The notes below the pieces were generated by a model. The model worked only from the letters and a program-made list of their open reading frames with translations, was not told the DNA's origin and made no database searches. Of a stretch of 64,000 nt of DNA, positions 1 through 11,265 are shown in pieces (within the stretch, counting starts at the first letter, position 1; each line of letters opens with the position of its first letter). The DNA comes from Bacilli bacterium (lineage in GTDB: Bacteria; Bacillota_I; Bacilli_A; RF39; UBA660). The position numbers and the translations under genes are program-made. The stretch is taken from positions 296,852 through 360,851 of the forward strand of contig JAFYYX010000001.1 in NCBI GenBank assembly GCA_017548925.1, given 5' to 3'.

Positions 1-49
1 TATGATTAAAAACAAACAAAAAATATTTATTTATAATATCGATTATTTA

Positions 50-100
50 GAGGAGTCAGTAGTACATAGACTTTTAAGTACTGCTGTCTCCTCTTTTTTT
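50..100 (+). terminator. Rho-independent terminator of an upstream gene
   Basis: A 16-bp stem (50-65 with 78-93; one mismatch and one G-T pair) is followed by seven T residues. It ends whatever transcript enters the window from the left and separates it from the recombinase block. Confidence 0.85.
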
Positions 101-312
101 GTAAATCGAAAGGAAATATTAAATGAATAAGATTAGATTAGATGAAACAATAAATGAGATTTTATATCTAAAACATATAAAAAATATTATAGACAGATTA
201 TATAAAGAAAAAAGTTTATTAACAGAAGAAGAACACAAGATAATTATTAACGAATGTGATAAAAGAATCCTTAAATGTGAAAGTGATTATGTAAATAAAA
301 AGGAGGAATACA

Positions 313-2341
<2,029 letters not shown>

Positions 2342-2443
2342 CCCGCAGATGATTGTATGCTCGCGTACAATCTTCTTAGAGGGTTAAATAGTTTGGCATC
2401 CCAATCTGGGAGCTCATACTATTCTTTTAAAAGGAGATAATAT
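2342..2443 (+). other. Candidate origin of transfer (oriT) with two hairpins
   Basis: The 102-bp gap between recombinase and relaxase holds a 10-bp stem (2351-2360 with 2363-2372, GATTGTA/TACAATC core). A second, nested inverted repeat follows (AATAGT 2387-2392 with ACTATT 2418-2423, enclosing CCCA/TGGG). Neither is followed by a T-run, so they are not terminators. MobV relaxases usually nick at inverted repeats just upstream of their own gene, which makes this the best oriT candidate. The nick site itself cannot be named. Confidence 0.45.
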
Positions 2444-3865
2444 ATGGAAACTTTAGCCTATTCATTTCATCTTGGTAATGACGGAAATAAGTCTAGAAAA
2501 GCAAAAGCAAAAAGTAAAAATAATTTAAGTGGCACTACTTCTTTTGCAAATAATGCTATTCAAAATTCTCAACAATTATCAAAAGTAAGTAATCATGATT
2601 TTAGAAAATATGATGGAGATACAGAATATATTTATGGACTTAGAGGAACTAATGATGTTGTATCGGATGTTAAAGAATTATATCTAGATATGTTTGAAGA
2701 ATCTAGAATAGAATATAACTCAAAACAATCAAGAGCTAGTAGAATGATTAATGATTATTTTAAACATGTATCAGATGATGAACAAAAAGATTTAGCTTGT
2801 GAAATTATAATTGAACTTGGAAATAAAGATTTTTGGGATACAAAGAATCTAGATTATAAACAGAAAATGGTCAATGTATTTAATCAACAATTAAAGGATT
2901 TAGAACATAAAGTTCCAGACTTTAAAATATGCTCTGCTGTTGTACATTTAGATGAAGGATCACCTCATATGCATGTTGTAGGAGTTCCAATTAAATATAA
3001 CAATACTAGAGGAATGAATATTCAAGTGGGTAAGTCTGCAGTCTTTACAAAAGAAAAACTTGAAAAATTACAAGACTATATGAGAGAAAAATGTATTAAT
3101 GCTTATAATGAGGTTTATGGATTAAATGATGAACACAAAGCTGAATTAAAAGAAAAACAAAAAGGTCGAGCATTTAATATACACGTTAAAGATATGGCAA
3201 ACTATAATGAAATAATGAATCAATTAGAAGTGAATAAAAAAAGTATTAAAGAATCAGATGAGTTAGTTGATAAAATTGATAAAACATCTAAAGAATTAGA
3301 TGAGATATTCTATGAAATTGAACCAGATGAATTTAATAATTATAAATTAACAGAAAAGCAAATAGTTAGATTTATTGAATTAAATGATGAAGTTCAAAGA
3401 ATGGAAGAAGTATTTTTAAGACTAAAAGAAATATATCAAAATATTAATAAAGTAAAAGGTAATGTAGAATATTTAAATAAACGAAATAATGAGTTAATTA
3501 AGAAAAATGATGAACTAGCTGATATGAATCAAAGATACGAAAGAAAAATAAAAAATTATGAAGGCTCAGAAGAATTATTAAAAACATATATCCATACAAA
3601 AGATAAAGAACATTTAGAATTAGTTACTTATCTTTGTAAACATGCTAATAGTCAAGACTACACTACTTCTAGATTCTATAAACAATTATCTGACGATTTA
3701 TATCAAAAAGGATTTATCAAAGATAAAGAACATAGTGTTATATTTAATCCTCCTAAAATTATTAATAGATCTGAAATAAATAAAGCTATTAATTCTATTA
3801 ATAAAGAAATGGAAGAAGCTGCAGAAGAATTCTATAAGACAAAATCTGACAATTATAGTATATAA
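2444..3865 (+). CDS. mobV: MobV/Pre-family relaxase (mobilization protein)
   Basis: A 473-residue relaxase predicted to nick oriT and start DNA transfer of the element. The family hallmark is HLDEGSPHMH at residues 168-177, the HxDExxPHMH metal-binding motif III of Mob_Pre proteins. Upstream, the segment with SRASRMINDYFKHV and the NKDFW stretch matches the usual N-terminal relaxase region. The C-terminal half (about 220-400) is a long coiled coil. It starts at ATG 2444 behind AAGGAG. No type IV secretion or coupling protein genes are visible, so it would depend on a helper element. It could also serve as a plasmid recombination protein. Confidence 0.88.
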   Translation: METLAYSFHLGNDGNKSRKAKAKSKNNLSGTTSFANNAIQNSQQLSKVSNHDFRKYDGDTEYIYGLRGTNDVVSDVKELYLDMFEESRIEYNSKQSRASRMINDYFKHVSDDEQKDLACEIIIELGNKDFWDTKNLDYKQKMVNVFNQQLKDLEHKVPDFKICSAVVHLDEGSPHMHVVGVPIKYNNTRGMNIQVGKSAVFTKEKLEKLQDYMREKCINAYNEVYGLNDEHKAELKEKQKGRAFNIHVKDMANYNEIMNQLEVNKKSIKESDELVDKIDKTSKELDEIFYEIEPDEFNNYKLTEKQIVRFIELNDEVQRMEEVFLRLKEIYQNINKVKGNVEYLNKRNNELIKKNDELADMNQRYERKIKNYEGSEELLKTYIHTKDKEHLELVTYLCKHANSQDYTTSRFYKQLSDDLYQKGFIKDKEHSVIFNPPKIINRSEINKAINSINKEMEEAAEEFYKTKSDNYSI

Positions 3866-3918
3866 TATATTATATAAAGCAATTGTATCTTGTGTTTGTT
3901 TTGGATTGGAGGAATACT

Positions 3919-4503
3919 GTGTTACAAGTAAGTAGGAATAATAATTTAAAAATCCCAAAAGAGATAGAAATAACTACTAAGAGTGCAAATAATGTAGAAG
4001 ATATTATTGAAACAAAAAAAGTAATTGCAATAGCTGAAGGTAGAAAATTTAATTCCAAAAAGGAAAAAGAAAAAGCTGAGGTGGAAGATAACGAAATAAA
4101 AATAATAGATAAACTCCCATTTAATGCAAATGATCTAGTTGTAATTACCGTAGTGAAGAAATTATGTGCTTATGTAATTACTATAACCGAAAAATCTCCT
4201 AAGAAATTTCGAGGAGTTTTTGTTAATAGAATGCAGAATTATTGCTTAGATACGATAGAATATTTATTAAAGGCAAATTTTATTAGAATTGATTCTGCTT
4301 TAAATAAAGAAAAAAGAGAGAGTTATCAAAGAGAAGCTATTGTTAAACTGAAATTATTGGGTTATGTTTCTATGGTTGCAGAATCATCAGGTTGTATTTT
4401 AACAAGGCAATATAAACAAATTTCAATGCAACTTGCTGAAGCCATTAATCTAATCACGAGTTGGAAGAAAAGTGATGATGAGAGATGGAAAAATAAAAAT
4501 TAG
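3919..4503 (+). CDS. avd: DGR accessory variability determinant (Avd-like four-helix protein)
   Basis: A 194-residue protein. Its second half (about 75-190) has the pattern of the four-helix-bundle/Avd family: KLCAYVITITEKSPKKFR, a following NRMQNYCLDTIEYLL helix and a late QLAEAINLITSWKK helix. In DGRs, Avd forms a basic pentamer that binds the reverse transcriptase and the TR-containing RNA and is needed for mutagenic cDNA synthesis. The first ~70 residues are a charged extension not typical of the ~125-residue Avd proteins. GTG 3919 is chosen because GGAGG (3908-3912) lies six bases before it; the longer in-frame TTG start at 3883 has no such site. It lies directly upstream of the TR, as in classical DGRs. 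Confidence 0.85.
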   Translation: MLQVSRNNNLKIPKEIEITTKSANNVEDIIETKKVIAIAEGRKFNSKKEKEKAEVEDNEIKIIDKLPFNANDLVVITVVKKLCAYVITITEKSPKKFRGVFVNRMQNYCLDTIEYLLKANFIRIDSALNKEKRESYQREAIVKLKLLGYVSMVAESSGCILTRQYKQISMQLAEAINLITSWKKSDDERWKNKN

Positions 4504-4867
4504 GATTTTAGGTTGAAAGGCCTTTAATTAAGGAGAAAATTTGTATTTGTGTCGTTGCGTTTTTTAGAGCCACTCTCTTGACTCGCGTGCGCGTTGTTAA
4601 TAACAATGGTAATGATAACAACAACAATGTCAACAATCGTAATAATGGGGCTCGTCCAGATTCACTTTTGAAGGAATTAGTTATAATTCAAAAAACAGAT
4701 CAGAGAAATATATTTTAAGTAAAATATATCAGTATTGTAAGGTGAAGGAATTTTCTTCTTTTCCAATCGCTAACAGATTAAATCTTAGTGCGATAGAAAA
4801 ATAAAAGAACACTCACACAACCAACGGGTTTTAACTCTTTGCGCGTTATAAGGGGTGTTCATTTTAT
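4504..4867 (+). ncRNA. DGR template RNA region (TR plus spacer)
   Basis: This 364-bp stretch between avd and the reverse transcriptase contains no supported gene. It holds the template repeat (4585-4662) and about 200 bases of downstream spacer. The spacer includes a closing stem (4807-4814 with 4853-4860, one G-T pair) around a small AACC/GGTT hairpin, and a CCTTT/AAAGG palindrome lies at 4516-4525 upstream of TR. In studied DGRs the RNA spanning avd-TR-spacer-RT is the template and primer for mutagenic reverse transcription. Transcript ends cannot be seen here. Confidence 0.8.
4585..4662 (+). repeat. DGR template repeat (TR)
   Basis: A 78-base repeat matching 6204-6281. It contains 27 adenines, mostly in twelve AAT/AAC codons when read in the frame of the target protein, the usual DGR design for maximum amino-acid diversity. 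All 14 differences from the VR fall on TR adenines (nine to G, four to T, one to C), with none at the 51 other positions. The GC-rich 3' part, GGGGCTCGTCCAG, is invariant and would serve as the initiation-of-mutagenic-homing segment. Confidence 0.97.
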
Positions 4868-4882
4868 TTGGAGGTAAATATT

Positions 4883-5947
4883 ATGAATTTGAGTGAAATA
4901 TTTTCATTTGAAAATCTATATAGTGCATATAAACATTGTAGAAATTCAAAGCAACATAAAGGGGAGGTTATAAGATTTGAATCAAATCTTTCCGTTAATA
5001 TAAGCAATTTAAGCAAGGAATTAATAAATAAAACTTATAAACTTGGTAAGTATAAAAAGTTCTATATCTACGAACCAAAAGAGAGATTGATTGAAGCCCT
5101 ACCCTTTAAAGATAGGGTAATGGTTAGATGCTTTTGTGACATTGTTTTAAGAGACAAGATTGAAGTGAAGTTAATATATGATAATTGTGCATGTAGAAAA
5201 AATAAAGGGACTACTTTTGCAATTAATCGATTACATATATTTTTAAGAAATGAGTATATGAAGAGTAAAGATAATAATATATATTTCTTAAAGTGTGATA
5301 TTTGTAAATATTTTCCAAGTATAAACCATGATATTTTGATAAGTATGCTACAAAAGATTGACTTTTCCGATGATGAAATGTGGATTATGAAAAAACTCAT
5401 TAAAGAACAACCTGATAATGCAACTAAAGGGCTTCCTTTAGGTAACCAAACAAGTCAATGGTTTGCACTTTTATACCTAAATGGAGTTGATCATTTTATT
5501 AAAGAACAATTAAAAATAAAACATTATGTGAGATATATGGATGATATGATTTTAATACATAAAGATAAAGAATATTTGTCATTGTGTAAGAAAAAAATAG
5601 AAGAATATTGTAACAATATATTAGACCTAGAATTAAACGATAAAACTCAGATAGGGATGACTAAAAATGGTATTGATTTTTTGGGATACAGGCATATTAT
5701 AAATAGTAATGGTAAAATAATAGTAAAATTAAGGCATTCTTCAAAACAACGAATGAAAAAACATCTTAAGACTTTATATAAAATATATAATAATGGACTT
5801 GTAGATGATGAATATGTCTATCAAAGAAAAAATGCCTTCTATAATCATATAGAGTGGACTGCTGAAAGTAAAAGATTAAAAGATGAGGTTTTCCCCTTTG
5901 AAGATGATAAAAGCTTTAAATTTGTCCAAAAATATGTTAAAGAATAG
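4883..5947 (+). CDS. DGR reverse transcriptase
   Basis: A 354-residue group-II-intron-like reverse transcriptase without maturase or endonuclease domains, as is usual for DGRs. Palm motifs are intact: motif A FLKCDICKYFPSINH (Asp139), motif B GLPLGNQTSQW (183-193, the DGR-type GNxTSQ signature), and motif C RYMDDM with catalytic YMDD at 208-211. The later segment GIDFLGYR is also typical. It copies the TR RNA with adenine-directed errors and so supplies the variants that replace the VR. ATG 4883 is chosen because GGAGG (4870-4874) sits eight bases upstream. The TR ends 220 bases before it and the target gene starts 33 bases after it. Confidence 0.97.
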   Translation: MNLSEIFSFENLYSAYKHCRNSKQHKGEVIRFESNLSVNISNLSKELINKTYKLGKYKKFYIYEPKERLIEALPFKDRVMVRCFCDIVLRDKIEVKLIYDNCACRKNKGTTFAINRLHIFLRNEYMKSKDNNIYFLKCDICKYFPSINHDILISMLQKIDFSDDEMWIMKKLIKEQPDNATKGLPLGNQTSQWFALLYLNGVDHFIKEQLKIKHYVRYMDDMILIHKDKEYLSLCKKKIEEYCNNILDLELNDKTQIGMTKNGIDFLGYRHIINSNGKIIVKLRHSSKQRMKKHLKTLYKIYNNGLVDDEYVYQRKNAFYNHIEWTAESKRLKDEVFPFEDDKSFKFVQKYVKE

Positions 5948-5980
5948 GAATTTATGTTATGATATATATGGTGATTATAA

Positions 5981-8137
5981 ATGGATAATATGACTTTATT
6001 AACATATGAGCAAATCTTTGGAGATGAGCAATTAGATATAATTAAAAAATATGGAACTAAATGTGCTGTTACGGACTTTTCTATTCTTTTAGGGAACGCA
6101 TATTCTAATGATACTTACACTAACGTTGGAGAAGAAACTGAAGATAAAAAGGAAAGAACAGGATGGTGGTGGACAAAAACTTCTTATCCGGGATATAGTT
6201 CAGGCGTGCGCGTTGTTAGTGACAGTGGTTTTGATGACGACTACAGTGTCAGCATTCGTGATGATGGGGCTCGTCCAGCTTTACCTTACTCATCAATCAA
6301 ATTAATCGCCTCGAACGAAGTGAGAGGCAAGTTTGATATTAAGGAAGTTGAATATGGAGAATATCCGCAAACAATCGTTGATGAAACCCTTTCAAAGAAA
6401 TTAGAAAAGTGTTATAACGAGGATGTTCCATTTGAAATAGATCTAGTAAGAACGGGAAAAGTATATACTACAGATTCAGTTAACTATGATGAATATGATA
6501 CTAATTTTGAACCAGTAGAATATGAAGAGTTTGCATACAAAGGTAAAAAATATATTCGAGTTGTTGCCGGTTTTAATGGAAATGGTGAAACACTATCTGA
6601 TGGTAGAGTAATAGAAGACGGTAAACCATATTGGATTTCTGTTGAACCAATAAAATGGTTAGTAGACGAAAAAGCAAATGTAGCACTATCAAAAAAGATC
6701 CTTTTTTCTGGAGTTCAATTCCAAAATGATACGGAGTATGATGGAGACTTCGATAAAACTGATATAAAGAAATTTATGGACGGATATTTTTCAAAAGAAA
6801 TATGTAGAGCAACTGCACCTCGTATGTTGTTAGATGAAGACGAGTTGTCATCTTATGTACAAGCAGACACAGAATGGAATCAAGAATCAGAAGAAAGGAA
6901 ATCAAGATTACAAAGATTAAATCCTGATACTACTAGTCCTCAAGATAGACGAAGAATGACTGATACAGAGATTATTCATTCATGGATAGAAGCAGGACAA
7001 TCAGTATTACTTAGAGGCCCAAGTGGTATTGGTAAAACTGAAAGGATTAAAGCTTTATATCCAAATTTAATATATATAAAATTAACGAATAATATGTTTC
7101 CAGAAAAAGTTGTGGGTTCCATGAATCTTCAAACTGGGCAAAATATTCCACCTGATTTTGCTAAGCAAGCTTTACTTGCTTGTGCAACTAATGAGGAAAG
7201 AAGATTAATTAGCGAGAATGTCCAAAACCTTTATGATTTAGCTGACGAAATATATGAAAGATCTAAAAACAGCAATGAAAAGATAGTTATAATGCTAGAT
7301 GAATTATTAAACGTTAAACCAGCTGTTCAATCATTAGTCTATACTCTAGTTTTAAATAGATTAGTTGAAGCTGGAAAAGGATTAAAGCTTCCTGCTAATA
7401 CTGTTATAGTTGCAACGGGTAACCAAAGGAAGTATTCAAGCGTAGCTGAAGATTTAGCAGAACCACTTGAAAAAAGATTTGATCACATTTTAGATATGCA
7501 ACCAAAAGTTGGTGAATGGATAAATGAATATGCAATACCAAATAAAATTCATCCATCAGTAATTGGATATATACTATCTAAATATATTCAAAGTGGAAAA
7601 AGTGAACATATTTCTGACATGGGTTATTTTTATGAGGAACCTGAAGTGGGAGAAAAGAGATTAGACCAAAATGGTTGTAAAGGAAGAACTAATGACCCCC
7701 GTGGTTGGACATCAATTTCAAATACTCTTTATGCTTTTGAAGAAGATTTAAGAAAAGGTAAATTTATTGGAAAAGATGTAGAGCACATGTTAGAGGTATC
7801 TATCAATTCTAAACTTCGCGAGGAATGGGCTAGAGAGTTCTTTGATTTTTATAATATACCTACAATGTCAGTTGATGAAGTTGTTACAGATTCGTTTTCA
7901 CAAGCTGATTTACCAAGAGACATTAATGAAAGATTTGCTTGTGTAACATCATTATTGCTTGCTGATGAAAATCAAGTCGGAAAATGTAGAGATTTTATTA
8001 GAAAATATTGTGATCCAGAATATTTACAATTATATGATATTTGTTGGGCAGGTAATGATGAAAGAAAAATAATGAGAATAACAGAACTTCAAGAAATGAC
8101 AATGATTAATGAAGAAAGTGCAGGTAAGAGACTATGA
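5981..8137 (+). CDS. DGR target: N-terminal lectin-like variable domain fused to MoxR-type AAA+ ATPase
   Basis: A 718-residue fusion. Residues 1-110 end with a lectin-like signature (GWWWTKTSYPGY, then GARPAL) like the C-terminal end of DUF6273/formylglycine-type folds. The VR covers residues 75-101, with twelve diversified positions (80-82, 84, 86-89, 91, 92, 94, 95). Residues 120-280 (YGEYPQT, PYWISVEPIKW, SKKILFSGVQF) resemble the opening half of the same family. A MoxR-like AAA+ domain follows: Walker A GPSGIGKT (346-353), Walker B IVIMLDE (435-441), sensor Asn481 and a candidate arginine finger at 499. The gene overlaps the next by four bases and stands 33 bases after the reverse transcriptase. 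Ligand recognition by the variable face, coupled to ATPase remodelling, is inference. Confidence 0.93.
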   Translation: MDNMTLLTYEQIFGDEQLDIIKKYGTKCAVTDFSILLGNAYSNDTYTNVGEETEDKKERTGWWWTKTSYPGYSSGVRVVSDSGFDDDYSVSIRDDGARPALPYSSIKLIASNEVRGKFDIKEVEYGEYPQTIVDETLSKKLEKCYNEDVPFEIDLVRTGKVYTTDSVNYDEYDTNFEPVEYEEFAYKGKKYIRVVAGFNGNGETLSDGRVIEDGKPYWISVEPIKWLVDEKANVALSKKILFSGVQFQNDTEYDGDFDKTDIKKFMDGYFSKEICRATAPRMLLDEDELSSYVQADTEWNQESEERKSRLQRLNPDTTSPQDRRRMTDTEIIHSWIEAGQSVLLRGPSGIGKTERIKALYPNLIYIKLTNNMFPEKVVGSMNLQTGQNIPPDFAKQALLACATNEERRLISENVQNLYDLADEIYERSKNSNEKIVIMLDELLNVKPAVQSLVYTLVLNRLVEAGKGLKLPANTVIVATGNQRKYSSVAEDLAEPLEKRFDHILDMQPKVGEWINEYAIPNKIHPSVIGYILSKYIQSGKSEHISDMGYFYEEPEVGEKRLDQNGCKGRTNDPRGWTSISNTLYAFEEDLRKGKFIGKDVEHMLEVSINSKLREEWAREFFDFYNIPTMSVDEVVTDSFSQADLPRDINERFACVTSLLLADENQVGKCRDFIRKYCDPEYLQLYDICWAGNDERKIMRITELQEMTMINEESAGKRL
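6204..6281 (+). repeat. DGR variable repeat (VR)
   Basis: A copy of the TR inside the target gene, offset by 1619 bases. It is identical to the TR at all 51 non-adenine template positions and differs at 14 of 27 adenine positions. All twelve AAY codons of the TR are altered here, giving Ser, Asp, Ser, Phe, Asp, Asp, Tyr, Ser, Ser, Ile, Asp and Asp. Beyond 6281 the similarity stops. The position near the 5' end of the gene is atypical, since VRs usually lie at the 3' end. Confidence 0.97.
6308..6328 (+). other. Hairpin downstream of VR
   Basis: GCCTC (6308-6312) and GAGGC (6324-6328) can pair around an 11-base loop, 27 bases after the VR. A hairpin or cruciform just after the VR aids retrohoming in the Bordetella phage DGR, and no equivalent follows the TR. 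The stem is short, so this is tentative. Confidence 0.35.
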
Positions 8138-8523
8138 ATAAAGAGTTAATTGAATTACAAAGAGGTAGTAAAGCTACTTGCGTTGTGGTAAAGAATAGTG
8201 ATTTAAACAAACTTGGAAATGCTGTGCATATGGATTCAAGAATAAATGATTCATGGTTGTTTGGTGCTAAAATGGGTAATCCAATAATTAAAGAAAAGGT
8301 AGATATTGTTTCAAAAAATGGTGAAATAGGGTATTTTGTTATTACTAATTTTGATTCTTTATCAGTTGATGAACAAAATAAATATGTTCCAATAATTAAA
8401 GATAGAGAACTTCTTGGTTATACATTACCAGATAATATAATAATAGTATTATCTATAGAAAATAAAGAATCATTAAAAAATATTTCTTCAGAAATTTATC
8501 ATTTTTGTGTAGTATCAATTTAG
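8134..8523 (+). CDS. Short AAA-like protein of the DGR/MoxR-VWA operon
   Basis: A 129-residue protein without a confident family. Its second half shows the order of the middle part of a MoxR AAA+ domain: a Walker-B-like strand ending in Asp (YFVITNFDSLS), a helix, then LPDNIIIVLSIEN, which would correspond to the sensor-1 strand. No Walker A loop is present, so it could not bind ATP by itself. It overlaps the upstream ATPase gene by four bases (ATGA) and lies ten bases before the VWA gene, so the three proteins are very likely made together. A regulatory or adaptor role is inference. Confidence 0.75.
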   Translation: MNKELIELQRGSKATCVVVKNSDLNKLGNAVHMDSRINDSWLFGAKMGNPIIKEKVDIVSKNGEIGYFVITNFDSLSVDEQNKYVPIIKDRELLGYTLPDNIIIVLSIENKESLKNISSEIYHFCVVSI

Positions 8524-8533
8524 GTGATTGTTT

Positions 8534-10003
8534 ATGGATGCAATGACAAAATTACTTTACGAAACTAAACGATTAATGATGTTAAGATATCCAAGATTTG
8601 CAAGTGAGATAGCATCAGCAAATATTTCCTATAGAACGGATTTAAAATGTCATACTGCGGCAACTGATGGAAAAAATATTTTCTTTGATCCAGAATACTT
8701 AGCAGGTTTAAGCGAGGCAGATAGATTATTTCTTATTGCACATGAATTAATGCATATTAAATTTGCTCATGCATTTAGACTTGAAGATAAAAATGGTGAA
8801 AAACGTGATATGGATACATGGAATATAGCAACCGATGCTATAATAAACGCTAATCTTGAAAGAGACGGATTTATTATTAAAGAGGGATATGTTAACAGAC
8901 CTGAAGCTTTGAATTATTCTGCAGAAGAGTTTTATCAATTACTTTTAGAAGAAAAAAAATCTAAAGAACAAGAACAACAAAGTAATAGTGATCAAGGCAG
9001 TCAAGATAAAAATAGAAGTGAAGATTCACAAGAACAAACTGAGAGTCAAAATAGTAATGGCGAAACTCAACAAGATCAATCAAACGCTCAAGATGGTGAA
9101 TCATCAAACGATAAGAATGATGGTGAAGGTCAACAAATCGGTGATGACCATAGTTTATGGGAAGAAGCTTTTGAAAAAAGAAAAAATGGTGATAAATCTA
9201 ATGATAATTCTAATAGTTCTCAAAGCGATGATATATCAGCAAATGATGATTTAGAATCTCATAGTTTTGACGAGAAAGAAGAGTTTGAGAAGAATTATGA
9301 GGAAAGAAGAACAAGAGCTAAGGAAAATTTAGAAAGATTAAAGAAAGAGATGTTAACTGATTCAAATTTCTCTGATAAAACTAATTTAGGTTCAGTTGGT
9401 GAAAGCGTTGAAGAATTTGATTGGAGACTTTTATTAAGAAGAGAAGTTGAAAAGACTGAAACAATATGGTCGCAAAGAAGATCAATAGCAGAAAATAATT
9501 ACGCTTATCGATTAGAAGAAAACGATATTGATGATGAAGCTGAAACAGAAGTTATGATAGATGTTTCTGGTTCGGTTGATTTGGATTTGGTTAAAGCATT
9601 TTTAAGAATGATAAAGCCAATATTAAAAGAATCAAAATTAAAAGTTGGATGTTTCAATGAAAAGTTTTGGGGTATGAAGGAAATTAAAAGTGTGAATGAC
9701 ATTGATAATTTTGAAATACCTAGTGGAGCAAGAGGGCACTCTGCATGGACAGAAGACTGGGATTTAGCTGTTAGATCTTTTACTAAGAAAAGAGAAATAA
9801 ATAAAATTGTTTTTACGGATGGTGAACCTTGTCCTGGAACTATGCCTAAAGATGATTTAAAAAATGAAAATGTTATTTGGCTTGTATATGGTAATAGATA
9901 TTTTAAACCATGCTGTGGTACTGTAATTCAAATTACTTCAAAGCAACTTGAAAGACTATATGATTGTAAAGTTGATGAAGATGCAAGTAGGAAGATTAGA
10001 TAA
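8534..10003 (+). CDS. Putative metallopeptidase-VWA protein (DUF2201-type)
   Basis: A 489-residue partner of the upstream MoxR ATPase. The N-terminal part carries the zinc-peptidase motif HELMH (70-74) followed by WNIATDAIINANLE, the layout of the DUF2201 N-terminal putative metallopeptidase. A long Ser/Gln/Asn/Asp linker (about 143-250) is followed by a coiled segment and then a VWA-like domain. That domain has the metal-ion site DVSGS (343-347) and a later TDGEPCPG. MoxR ATPases and VWA proteins usually work as pairs, with the VWA protein binding or delivering the client. ATG 8534 is preferred over TTG 8528 because AGGTGA (8522-8527) is then correctly spaced. It is the last gene before the element's presumed right side. 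Confidence 0.88.
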   Translation: MDAMTKLLYETKRLMMLRYPRFASEIASANISYRTDLKCHTAATDGKNIFFDPEYLAGLSEADRLFLIAHELMHIKFAHAFRLEDKNGEKRDMDTWNIATDAIINANLERDGFIIKEGYVNRPEALNYSAEEFYQLLLEEKKSKEQEQQSNSDQGSQDKNRSEDSQEQTESQNSNGETQQDQSNAQDGESSNDKNDGEGQQIGDDHSLWEEAFEKRKNGDKSNDNSNSSQSDDISANDDLESHSFDEKEEFEKNYEERRTRAKENLERLKKEMLTDSNFSDKTNLGSVGESVEEFDWRLLLRREVEKTETIWSQRRSIAENNYAYRLEENDIDDEAETEVMIDVSGSVDLDLVKAFLRMIKPILKESKLKVGCFNEKFWGMKEIKSVNDIDNFEIPSGARGHSAWTEDWDLAVRSFTKKREINKIVFTDGEPCPGTMPKDDLKNENVIWLVYGNRYFKPCCGTVIQITSKQLERLYDCKVDEDASRKIR

Positions 10004-10258
10004 ATATAAAATGTGATAAATGAAATATTAATATTTGGTATATATAATTATAAAGTTGGAAAATCTATACTAAGGTGAAATATATAAGTTGATAATTTAT
10101 AGATTTTTGTAGTATAATGTTTATAGAAAAATTTTATACTTGTGAAACAAGGTGGAAAGTTTAAAAGTATCTAAATAAACGCCCCAGATTTGATAATAAA
10201 ACGAACTATATTAATAGTTCGTTTTTGTATGTTATAATGTAAGTAGGGTGATATAAAG
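10004..10258 (+). other. AT-rich gap with terminator; possible right side of the element
   Basis: A 255-bp stretch without a supported gene. It contains one clear terminator at 10200-10226 (ACGAACTAT pairing with ATAGTTCGT, then Ts), close to the next gene. The rest is AT-rich with no recognisable attachment site. The right end of the mobile element probably lies somewhere here, but no matching left end was found. Confidence 0.5.
10200..10226 (+). terminator. Terminator between DGR operon and GNAT gene
   Basis: A perfect 9-bp stem (10201-10209 with 10214-10222) with a four-base loop and a T-run. Confidence 0.85.
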
Positions 10259-10852
10259 ATGGAAAAGTTTTACCTAGAAGAACCAACAATGAAAAGAAAA
10301 CAAGAAGCATATTTATACATTTGTGAACATATTAAGAGTGGTTCTAATATTAATGGCTCTGGTAGTTTAGATAAATACATAGATAATTATGAAGGATGGC
10401 TAAAAAAACTAGAGCATGATAAAACTAGAATACCAGATGAATATAAAGTACCATCATTAACATATTTTTTAATTAGAGAAAATGATGATAAAATTATCGG
10501 AATGATTAATATAAGACTTACTTTAAATGAATTTTTAAGCAAATATGGTGGACATATTGGTTATGGTATTAGGCCATCAGAAAGAGGAAAAGGTTATAAT
10601 AAAATCAATTTATATTTAGGCCTTCAAGTATGTGATAAACATGGCATAGATGTTGTATTTATGGATGCTGATTTAGATAATCCTGCATCATGGAAAACAA
10701 TGGAAGCTCTAGGTGGAGTAAGAGTAAGACAGTATTTTGAAGAAATAGATCAAACTGAAACTGTTGATTATAATATTAATGTAAAGGAATCATTAGAAAA
10801 ATATAAAGATATATATGAACCTTATATAAGTGAAGAAAGGATTAGAAGGTGA
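10259..10852 (+). CDS. GNAT-family N-acetyltransferase
   Basis: A 197-residue protein of the acetyl-CoA-dependent GNAT superfamily (COG3981-like predicted acetyltransferase). The acetyl-CoA binding segment reads GGHIGYGIRPSERGKGYNK, with the R/Q-x-x-G-x-G/A pattern as RGKGYN. It follows a beta strand with IIGMINIRL. The later DADLDNPASWKTMEALGG matches the common D-x-x-N-x-x-S-x-x-x-x-E-x-x-G finish of the fold. The substrate is unknown. ATG 10259 is preceded by GGGTGAT. The gene runs straight into the next one (end 10852, next start 10858), so they are probably co-transcribed. Confidence 0.88.
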   Translation: MEKFYLEEPTMKRKQEAYLYICEHIKSGSNINGSGSLDKYIDNYEGWLKKLEHDKTRIPDEYKVPSLTYFLIRENDDKIIGMINIRLTLNEFLSKYGGHIGYGIRPSERGKGYNKINLYLGLQVCDKHGIDVVFMDADLDNPASWKTMEALGGVRVRQYFEEIDQTETVDYNINVKESLEKYKDIYEPYISEERIRR

Positions 10853-10857
10853 GTAAT

Positions 10858-11265
10858 ATGAGTGGTGGATTTATGATATTTTTTATAGTTGGAATAGCTT
10901 TATTTATATTTATTTTTACATATGTAATGATGATAATGTTTAGTCCAAAAGCTAGATCAAAAATTATAGCAAGACAAGTTAAATCTTTAAGAGGAGCAAC
11001 AGATATGTCTAAAGATGACATTGAAGAAATGTTAACTAACTTATCTGGTGCTTCAATAAATTCTAAAAAAAGAATTTTAGATGAAAATGAAGATACACTT
11101 AAAGATATTAAGGACGCTGAAGCAAGAATAAATAAAGATGCTATTAAAGAAACTGCTGGAGCAGTTAAAGAAGGTTTATTTGGTTCAACAGTTTATTGTA
11201 AACACTGTGGTAAACAAATCGATAAAGATAGTAAATACTGTAAGCATTGTGGTGGAGAACTATAA
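10858..11265 (+). CDS. Membrane protein with C-terminal zinc ribbon
   Basis: A 135-residue protein. Residues about 4-26 are one transmembrane helix (FFIVGIALFIFIFTYVMM). A charged helical middle follows, ending in a zinc-ribbon of two CxxC-type knuckles, YCKHCGKQI and YCKHCGGEL. Such proteins are common in low-GC Firmicutes; the function is unknown. ATG 10858 is chosen over GTG 10849 because AAGGTGA (10846-10852) lies five bases upstream. Its stop codon shares one base with the start of the dehydrogenase gene, which implies translational coupling. Confidence 0.8.
   Translation: MSGGFMIFFIVGIALFIFIFTYVMMIMFSPKARSKIIARQVKSLRGATDMSKDDIEEMLTNLSGASINSKKRILDENEDTLKDIKDAEARINKDAIKETAGAVKEGLFGSTVYCKHCGKQIDKDSKYCKHCGGEL

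Follow-up and report, generated by a model that had tools for sequence, protein, structure and literature searches.

The closest described relatives of the system analysed here are the VMAP/iSTAND ternary conflict systems, in which a MoxR-like ATPase and a vWA protein are combined with a C-lectin domain varied by a diversity-generating retroelement (DGR), an arrangement proposed to sense invasion in the passages of PMC7159879 and PMC10907252 that describe it. The DGR targets of candidate phyla radiation (CPR) bacteria include AAA ATPases joined to a hypervariable C-lectin domain, according to a work cited in PMC10907252, and the Tentaclins carry an N-terminal DUF6273 C-lectin domain whose surface hairpin is mutated by a DGR, according to the sections of PMC10743442 that treat them. 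We analysed a stretch of 64,000 nucleotides from a Bacilli bacterium (assembly GCA_017548925.1, contig JAFYYX010000001.1, positions 296,852 to 360,851; hereafter the window), which resembles all three. In this window, a DGR is predicted to vary the front of an AAA+ ATPase through a lectin domain that appears to be circularly permuted, and the ATPase heads a three-gene operon within a mobile-type element. The genes, domains and repeats given below for this element lie on the + strand, except that the element as a whole and its right attachment repeat have no strand assigned.

A preliminary description of this DNA had claimed a DGR-diversified N-terminus, and the repeats bear this out. The template repeat (TR; 4585–4662, located by repeat search) and the variable repeat (VR; 6204–6281, residues 75–101 of the 718-residue target) align over 78 nt; of the 27 template adenines 14 are changed, and of the 51 other bases none. 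The search behind this alignment penalises non-A mismatches; a repeat finder free of that rule returned an 84-nt repeat of 81% identity that has 16 mismatches, 14 of them at a template A and two, near its end, elsewhere. Fourteen out of fourteen mismatches at A have a probability of about (27/78)^14 = 4e-7 if mismatches are independent of the base, which rules out a chance repeat as the explanation of the pair. The TR reads largely as asparagine codons. The reverse transcriptase (RT; 4883–5947, start inferred within an open reading frame (ORF) that opens at 4868) matches phrog_1423 (E = 1e-106) and RVT_1 (2e-18), contains YMDD and LGNQTSQ, which we take to be DGR-type motifs, and is the single RT match in the window's own genome, which is 92% complete. 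An N-terminally extended, Avd-like accessory protein (3919–4503; GTG start inferred, ORF opening at 3883) matches phrog_3206 at 3.7e-17, and NCBIfam DivGenRetAVD (1.2e-7) and Pfam bAvd (2.3e-5) below their respective cut-offs. Together with a hairpin 3′ of the VR, the locus holds the A-specific repeat pair, the DGR-type RT and the Avd of a DGR. The Avd-like proteins of the window and of related loci have ~75 extra residues ahead of the Avd profile match.

Relatives of the target locate the variation in the VR. A database search (7991 candidates scored) found 1292 target homologues at E ≤ 0.001. Two relatives at 98% identity, loci L002 and L003, come from sheep-gut genomes that are assigned to separate species; they match the window at ~99% along 9.06 kb and at 92–93% in an additional block. 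Both genomes are metagenome bins, in which contig misplacement is possible. Within the target gene, their VRs differ from that of the window at 20 and 21 of 84 bases, against 11 and 13 of 2061 bases elsewhere (24–25% versus 0.5–0.6%). Between L002 and L003, 5 of 84 VR bases and 2 of 2061 others are different, and L002 has an A at each of the five changed VR positions. (Such comparisons were tabulated for the 40 closest pairs, less any in which the end of the VR was not locatable.) Among 81 aligned homologues, selected by length from the 86 proteins P0035–P0120, the 11 most variable columns correspond to residues 74–88 of the reference row, and mean entropy is 0.10 in the ATPase core versus 1.35 in the VR. 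The VR variation is real and recent and suggests ongoing use; the L002–L003 pair would also, indirectly, fit mutagenic activity.

The lectin-like nature of the target's N-terminus had also been proposed, and by Pfam it is weak: the N-domain matches DUF6273 at E = 3.4e-4 and 20.9 bits, under the 23.5 cut-off. Profile comparison with hhalign gives a clearer picture, although against one canonical protein. Residues 1–113 (5981–6319) align with residues 210–273 of the canonical DUF6273 protein L147 (E = 1e-7), its C-terminal half, and residues 114–278 (6320–6814) align with its residues 3–134 (E = 4e-10), the N-terminal half, so that the C-half precedes the N-half and the canonical order is not kept. 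In native order, only one half aligns (score 66.8); when the order is swapped, both do, over 208 columns with a score of 97.8 and E = 2e-14 for that single comparison. Tested against four canonical DUF6273 proteins, the permuted order gave one strong match, a second weaker one and no signal in two. Structure prediction places residues 1–286 in a single unit (pTM 0.89). Foldseek searches of PDB and viral structures with the N-domain returned no match below 1e-3; the best PDB matches are unrelated by title, and some phage DUF6273 proteins appear at E above 0.03. We conclude from these alignments that the DUF6273/C-lectin domain of the target is circularly permuted, and it is because of this permutation that the VR is N-terminal. 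Sub-cut-off DUF6273 matches also occur in prepilin-like proteins of two congeneric genomes (L151 4973–9270 and L152 978–7330; GFTLVELLAVI start), one of which, in one of the two genomes, adjoins an RT; these may be pilin-type DGR targets.

A hairpin downstream of the VR is a feature of DGRs. With the VR at the N-terminus, the window's post-VR hairpin (GCCTC-11 nt-GAGGC, 6308–6328), which starts 26 nt past the VR, falls within the target reading frame and is translated. Its stem nevertheless covaries: in 15 distinct sequences, all 75 of 75 pair cells are paired, with compensatory change in two of the five pairs. None of 500 shuffles reached the covariation score, although 30 of 500 had as many pairs with both partners changed. 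The count covers a single clade, with 18 sequences of which 15 are distinct, to the exclusion of a second, and was controlled with shuffled and slid stems; the second clade has a GC-rich stem of its own, altered in L030. Members without an RT retain the hairpin in some cases, and in others it was not found; the scan passed over 8 of the 69 targets because they lack the motif, and its motif matches in L042 and L043 are spurious. We infer that the post-VR hairpin is probably a retrohoming element. C-terminal VRs were presented as a near-universal organisation by Roux et al. (2021), who, in the part of PMC8144416 concerned, explain it by cis-acting elements thereby released from coding constraint. 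The VR analysed here lies near the opposite end of its protein, and the window DGR thus departs from the reported rule. A coding hairpin that still covaries makes the question of DGR cis-elements directly testable.

The operon consists, as previously described, of three adjacent genes without a real gap: the target (5981–8137, 718 residues), a small protein (8134–8523, 129 residues, overlapping by 4 nt) and a third protein (8528–10003, 491 residues). The AAA+ core (6953–7570) retains the motifs reported as intact, namely Walker A at 7016 (GPSGIGKT, residues 346–353), Walker B at 7289 (IMLDE, 437–441) and sensor-1 at 7409 (VATGN, 477–481), together with EKRFD at 7469 (497–501), which is presumably Arg-finger-like. 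Its assignment as MoxR-type is favoured by the VWA partner (42 of 61 loci, see below) but is ambiguous by fold, since the best matches, the NorQ of NorQ-NorD VWA pairs and CbbQ, are tied with McrB. The third protein combines a DUF2201 zincin-like part (DUF2201_N, 8e-24) bearing HELMH at 8741 with a VWA-like part that matches DUF2201 at only 0.16 and contains a MIDAS-like DVSGS at 9560; it is thus the HExxH metallopeptidase–VWA protein that had been named, its peptidase function being putative. The small protein had been called AAA-like. Its hhalign match to the ATPase scores 30.3 (E = 3.2e-4, probability 39%), where controls with reversed and up to 30 column-shuffled profiles stay at or below 19.7, and is suggestive of a P-loop-less AAA fragment; no P-loop is present, and Pfam offered no convincing family. 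In three Clostridia loci (L009 9127–9591, L021 12204–12659, L047 12234–12701), an extra gene of 152–156 residues stands between a sensor-ATPase gene and the small gene. No transmembrane-like stretch was detected in the three operon proteins (19-residue mean ≤1.28). With no membrane-spanning segment evident, the sensor is probably cytosolic; a surface adhesin, which we also considered, was rejected for the lack of any long hydrophobic stretch in the proteins.

The operon and its DGR are cargo of a 10.6-kb mobile-type element at tRNA-His. This integrative element of ~10,638 bp starts 458 nt upstream of the window and ends at 10186 (thus 1–10186 in the window), as delimited by the tRNA-His junction, CGCCCCA repeats and comparison with L002 and L003. 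One repeat is at the 3′ end of tRNA-His (window position −458), the other at 10180 (right attachment repeat, 10180–10186). Homology between L003 and the window begins in a common tRNA-His immediately beyond the left boundary and reaches approximately the right one, and L003 has the same tRNA-His junction. The L002 contig begins and stops at CGCCCCA repeats, with 9 nt common to both ends; this would fit an excised or multi-context unit but does not show excision. In 4 of 4 congeneric genomes examined, the same tRNA-His stretch is followed by sequence other than the element. In one of these congeners, a short-chain dehydrogenase gene follows tRNA-His (76% over 322 nt), the window counterpart of which is at 11247; because two further genes (10259–11265) precede it in the window, more than the element differs between the two sites. 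The element encodes a large serine recombinase (431–2341; Pfam Resolvase 5e-33, Recombinase 2e-14) and a Mob_Pre relaxase-like protein (2444–3865; Pfam Mob_Pre 4e-15), and with a defined site that is free of it in congeners, it has the features of an integrative and mobilizable element. Because one copy is on such an element, hypermutable sensing may be tradeable. On contig L177, three sensor genes, one of them cut by the contig end, adjoin a related recombinase, with no RT.

The operon recurs in gut Bacilli and Clostridia. Across 61 genome loci, some of them cut by contig ends, the N-domain passed its threshold in 58, the small gene and the VWA gene were each found in 44, and all three genes occur together in 42. 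A search for homologues beside DGR RTs had been suggested, and a full RT is present in 20 loci. Of these 20, 18 include both partner genes and 19 a TR that matches. Another 6 loci have a partial RT only (26 with any match), and avd is present in 19. In four of the full-RT loci (L008, L009, L011 and L014) one TR matches two target genes, with one copy interrupted in L008. Seventeen of the 61 loci have no RT within at least 8 kb upstream, including L024, which retains avd. The 28 genomes behind 30 of the 35 RT-less loci, all metagenome bins of unstated completeness, comprise 16 without an RT match and 12 with RTs at most 52% identical (at most 40% for those of full length). RT states are clustered on an ATPase tree of 59 of the 69 targets, requiring 13 changes over four states versus a shuffled mean of 24.2, and many changes remain. 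DGR-free operons with an invariant N-terminus had been named as grounds for rejecting a DGR-varied sensor; DGR-free versions do exist, and the VR is hypervariable between the window, L002 and L003. Within the window's family, 27 of 145 genomes match, several through stand-alone, tandem or otherwise fused N-domains, and of 296 genomes in the class, 8 match the small gene, mostly weakly. Among 53 viral contigs recovered with the ATPase, 51 have an adjoining VWA gene and none has the sensor domain. DGR-free versions and viral ATPase/VWA pairs that lack the sensor domain make the hypervariable domain look like an add-on. A phage-tail or prophage origin was rejected, as none of the 53 ATPase-profile viral loci has the sensor domain or the window RT, and all are distant.

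Several loci have unusual layouts. Four tandem stand-alone N-domain genes occur in L176 (11125–14770), with no ATPase or RT match adjoining. The tandem targets of L012 (9998–10912 and 13083–13997) show no difference across 915 nt, VR included, a pattern that recent copying or gene conversion would leave, and no RT lies within 10 kb upstream. A VR-like end directly 3′ of avd in L024 (9009–9200), where the RT and the target start are absent, has the layout expected after TR/VR recombination. Finally, the TR contains an in-frame stop in L005 (TAA, 10244), L007 (TAA, 2556), L021 (TGA, 10244) and L026 (TAA, 8048), which shows in the VR (as TAG in L007) and interrupts the target. Such a stop may mark decay or an off state, the latter because adenine mutagenesis could remove it.

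We hypothesize that the retroelement of the tRNA-His element diversifies the permuted C-lectin domain of a MoxR/McrB-like ATPase to yield a cytosolic, hypervariable ligand sensor with an immune-like repertoire, and we give this reading an even chance. The model follows the MoxR-vWA proposals set out in the relevant parts of Kaur et al. (PMC7159879) and Dore et al. (PMC10907252). The ATPase is predicted to form a NorQ-like ring in which each subunit presents a VR face. A ligand bound at the VR would alter ATPase activity, the ring would act on or release the VWA partner, and the zincin motif of that partner would cleave a target or perform another effector step. The ligand is probably intracellular, given that no membrane-spanning segment is evident, and could be a phage or rival mobile-element protein. 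The element would thereby provide its host with a renewable immune-like recognition repertoire.

The same parts could serve other ends. NorQ-NorD and CbbQ-CbbO remodel or mature proteins, and the ATPase/VWA pair might do likewise as a chaperone whose VR shifts client recognition, with no immune role. The nearest ATPase folds, the conserved VWA partner and an ATPase core far less variable than the VR agree with this; hypermutation, however, would be costly for a housekeeping client, the distribution is patchy (27 of 145 family genomes, many with the N-domain alone) and the operon rides on a mobile element, and we regard such a chaperone as unlikely. That last observation, the carriage with a recombinase and Mob_Pre protein, could instead mean that the module serves the element itself, by excluding rivals or stabilising the element, and not host defence. 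The occurrence of near-identical copies in genomes assigned to different species and the RT-less version beside a related recombinase in L177 are in keeping with this, but L025, L005 and L028 lie beside chromosomal-looking genes without a match to the window recombinase or Mob protein; we hold a role confined to the element to be improbable, if a little less so than the chaperone. A third view would make the VR a scar, left by a once DGR-driven unit of which most copies are now fixed. Loci with a partial RT only or with none upstream, and the four TR stops, are what it would predict, yet most differences among the target genes of the window, L002 and L003 fall in the VR and 19 of the 20 full-RT loci retain a matching TR, which leaves a relic very improbable.

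Returning to the sensor hypothesis, its broadest form is a portable, adaptive-immunity-like cassette: permutation would have put a mutable lectin face at the front of a remodelling ATPase, a single template would renew the intracellular sensor, the retrohoming hairpin would be read as protein, and mobile elements would trade the set among gut bacteria. We advance this tentatively, as falling somewhat short of an even chance. Overall, the interpretation in the preliminary description is partly supported. Its suggestion that this arrangement with an N-terminal VR is new agrees with our search, as we found no description of a sensor-ATPase/small protein/VWA operon with an N-terminal, permuted VR among the titles, abstract openings and passages of open-licence papers that the search covered.

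Compared with known systems, the ATPase and its VWA pairing recall NorQ-NorD and CbbQ-CbbO, which are among its closest solved folds. Those pairs are not known to have a sensor domain or a DGR, and unlike theirs, the VWA protein of the window bears an HExxH zincin-like part. Viral ATPase–DUF2201 VWA pairs (51 of 53 contigs) do place an HExxH-VWA gene near the ATPase, with a small gene between in the four inspected, but their ATPases are 20–26% identical to that of the window and come without sensor domain or RT. No VMAP family was found in Pfam, NCBIfam and PADLOC scans of the operon, in which no VMAP model was run by name. In VMAP/iSTAND systems, as far as the cited passages describe them, the varied lectin domain is C-terminal and mostly on the vWA component, whereas here it is N-terminal, permuted and on the ATPase, in gut Bacilli and Clostridia. 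The passage of PMC10907252 on CPR AAA–lectin targets does not mention a VWA partner, permutation or a mobile element, all of which are found in the window, and the Tentaclins, as presented in the corresponding part of PMC10743442, are phage proteins in which Ig domains follow the lectin domain, without an ATPase and with no mention of permutation, in contrast to the ATPase fusion seen here. AAA–lectin targets of CPR bacteria and DGR-varied MoxR-vWA systems are thus already in print; what is new is the N-terminal permuted variant. Viral pairs without a sensor, DGR-free sensor operons, DGR operons and tandem sensors form a series for comparison, and the window extends DGR-varied MoxR-vWA-like systems to small-genome gut Bacilli and Clostridia.

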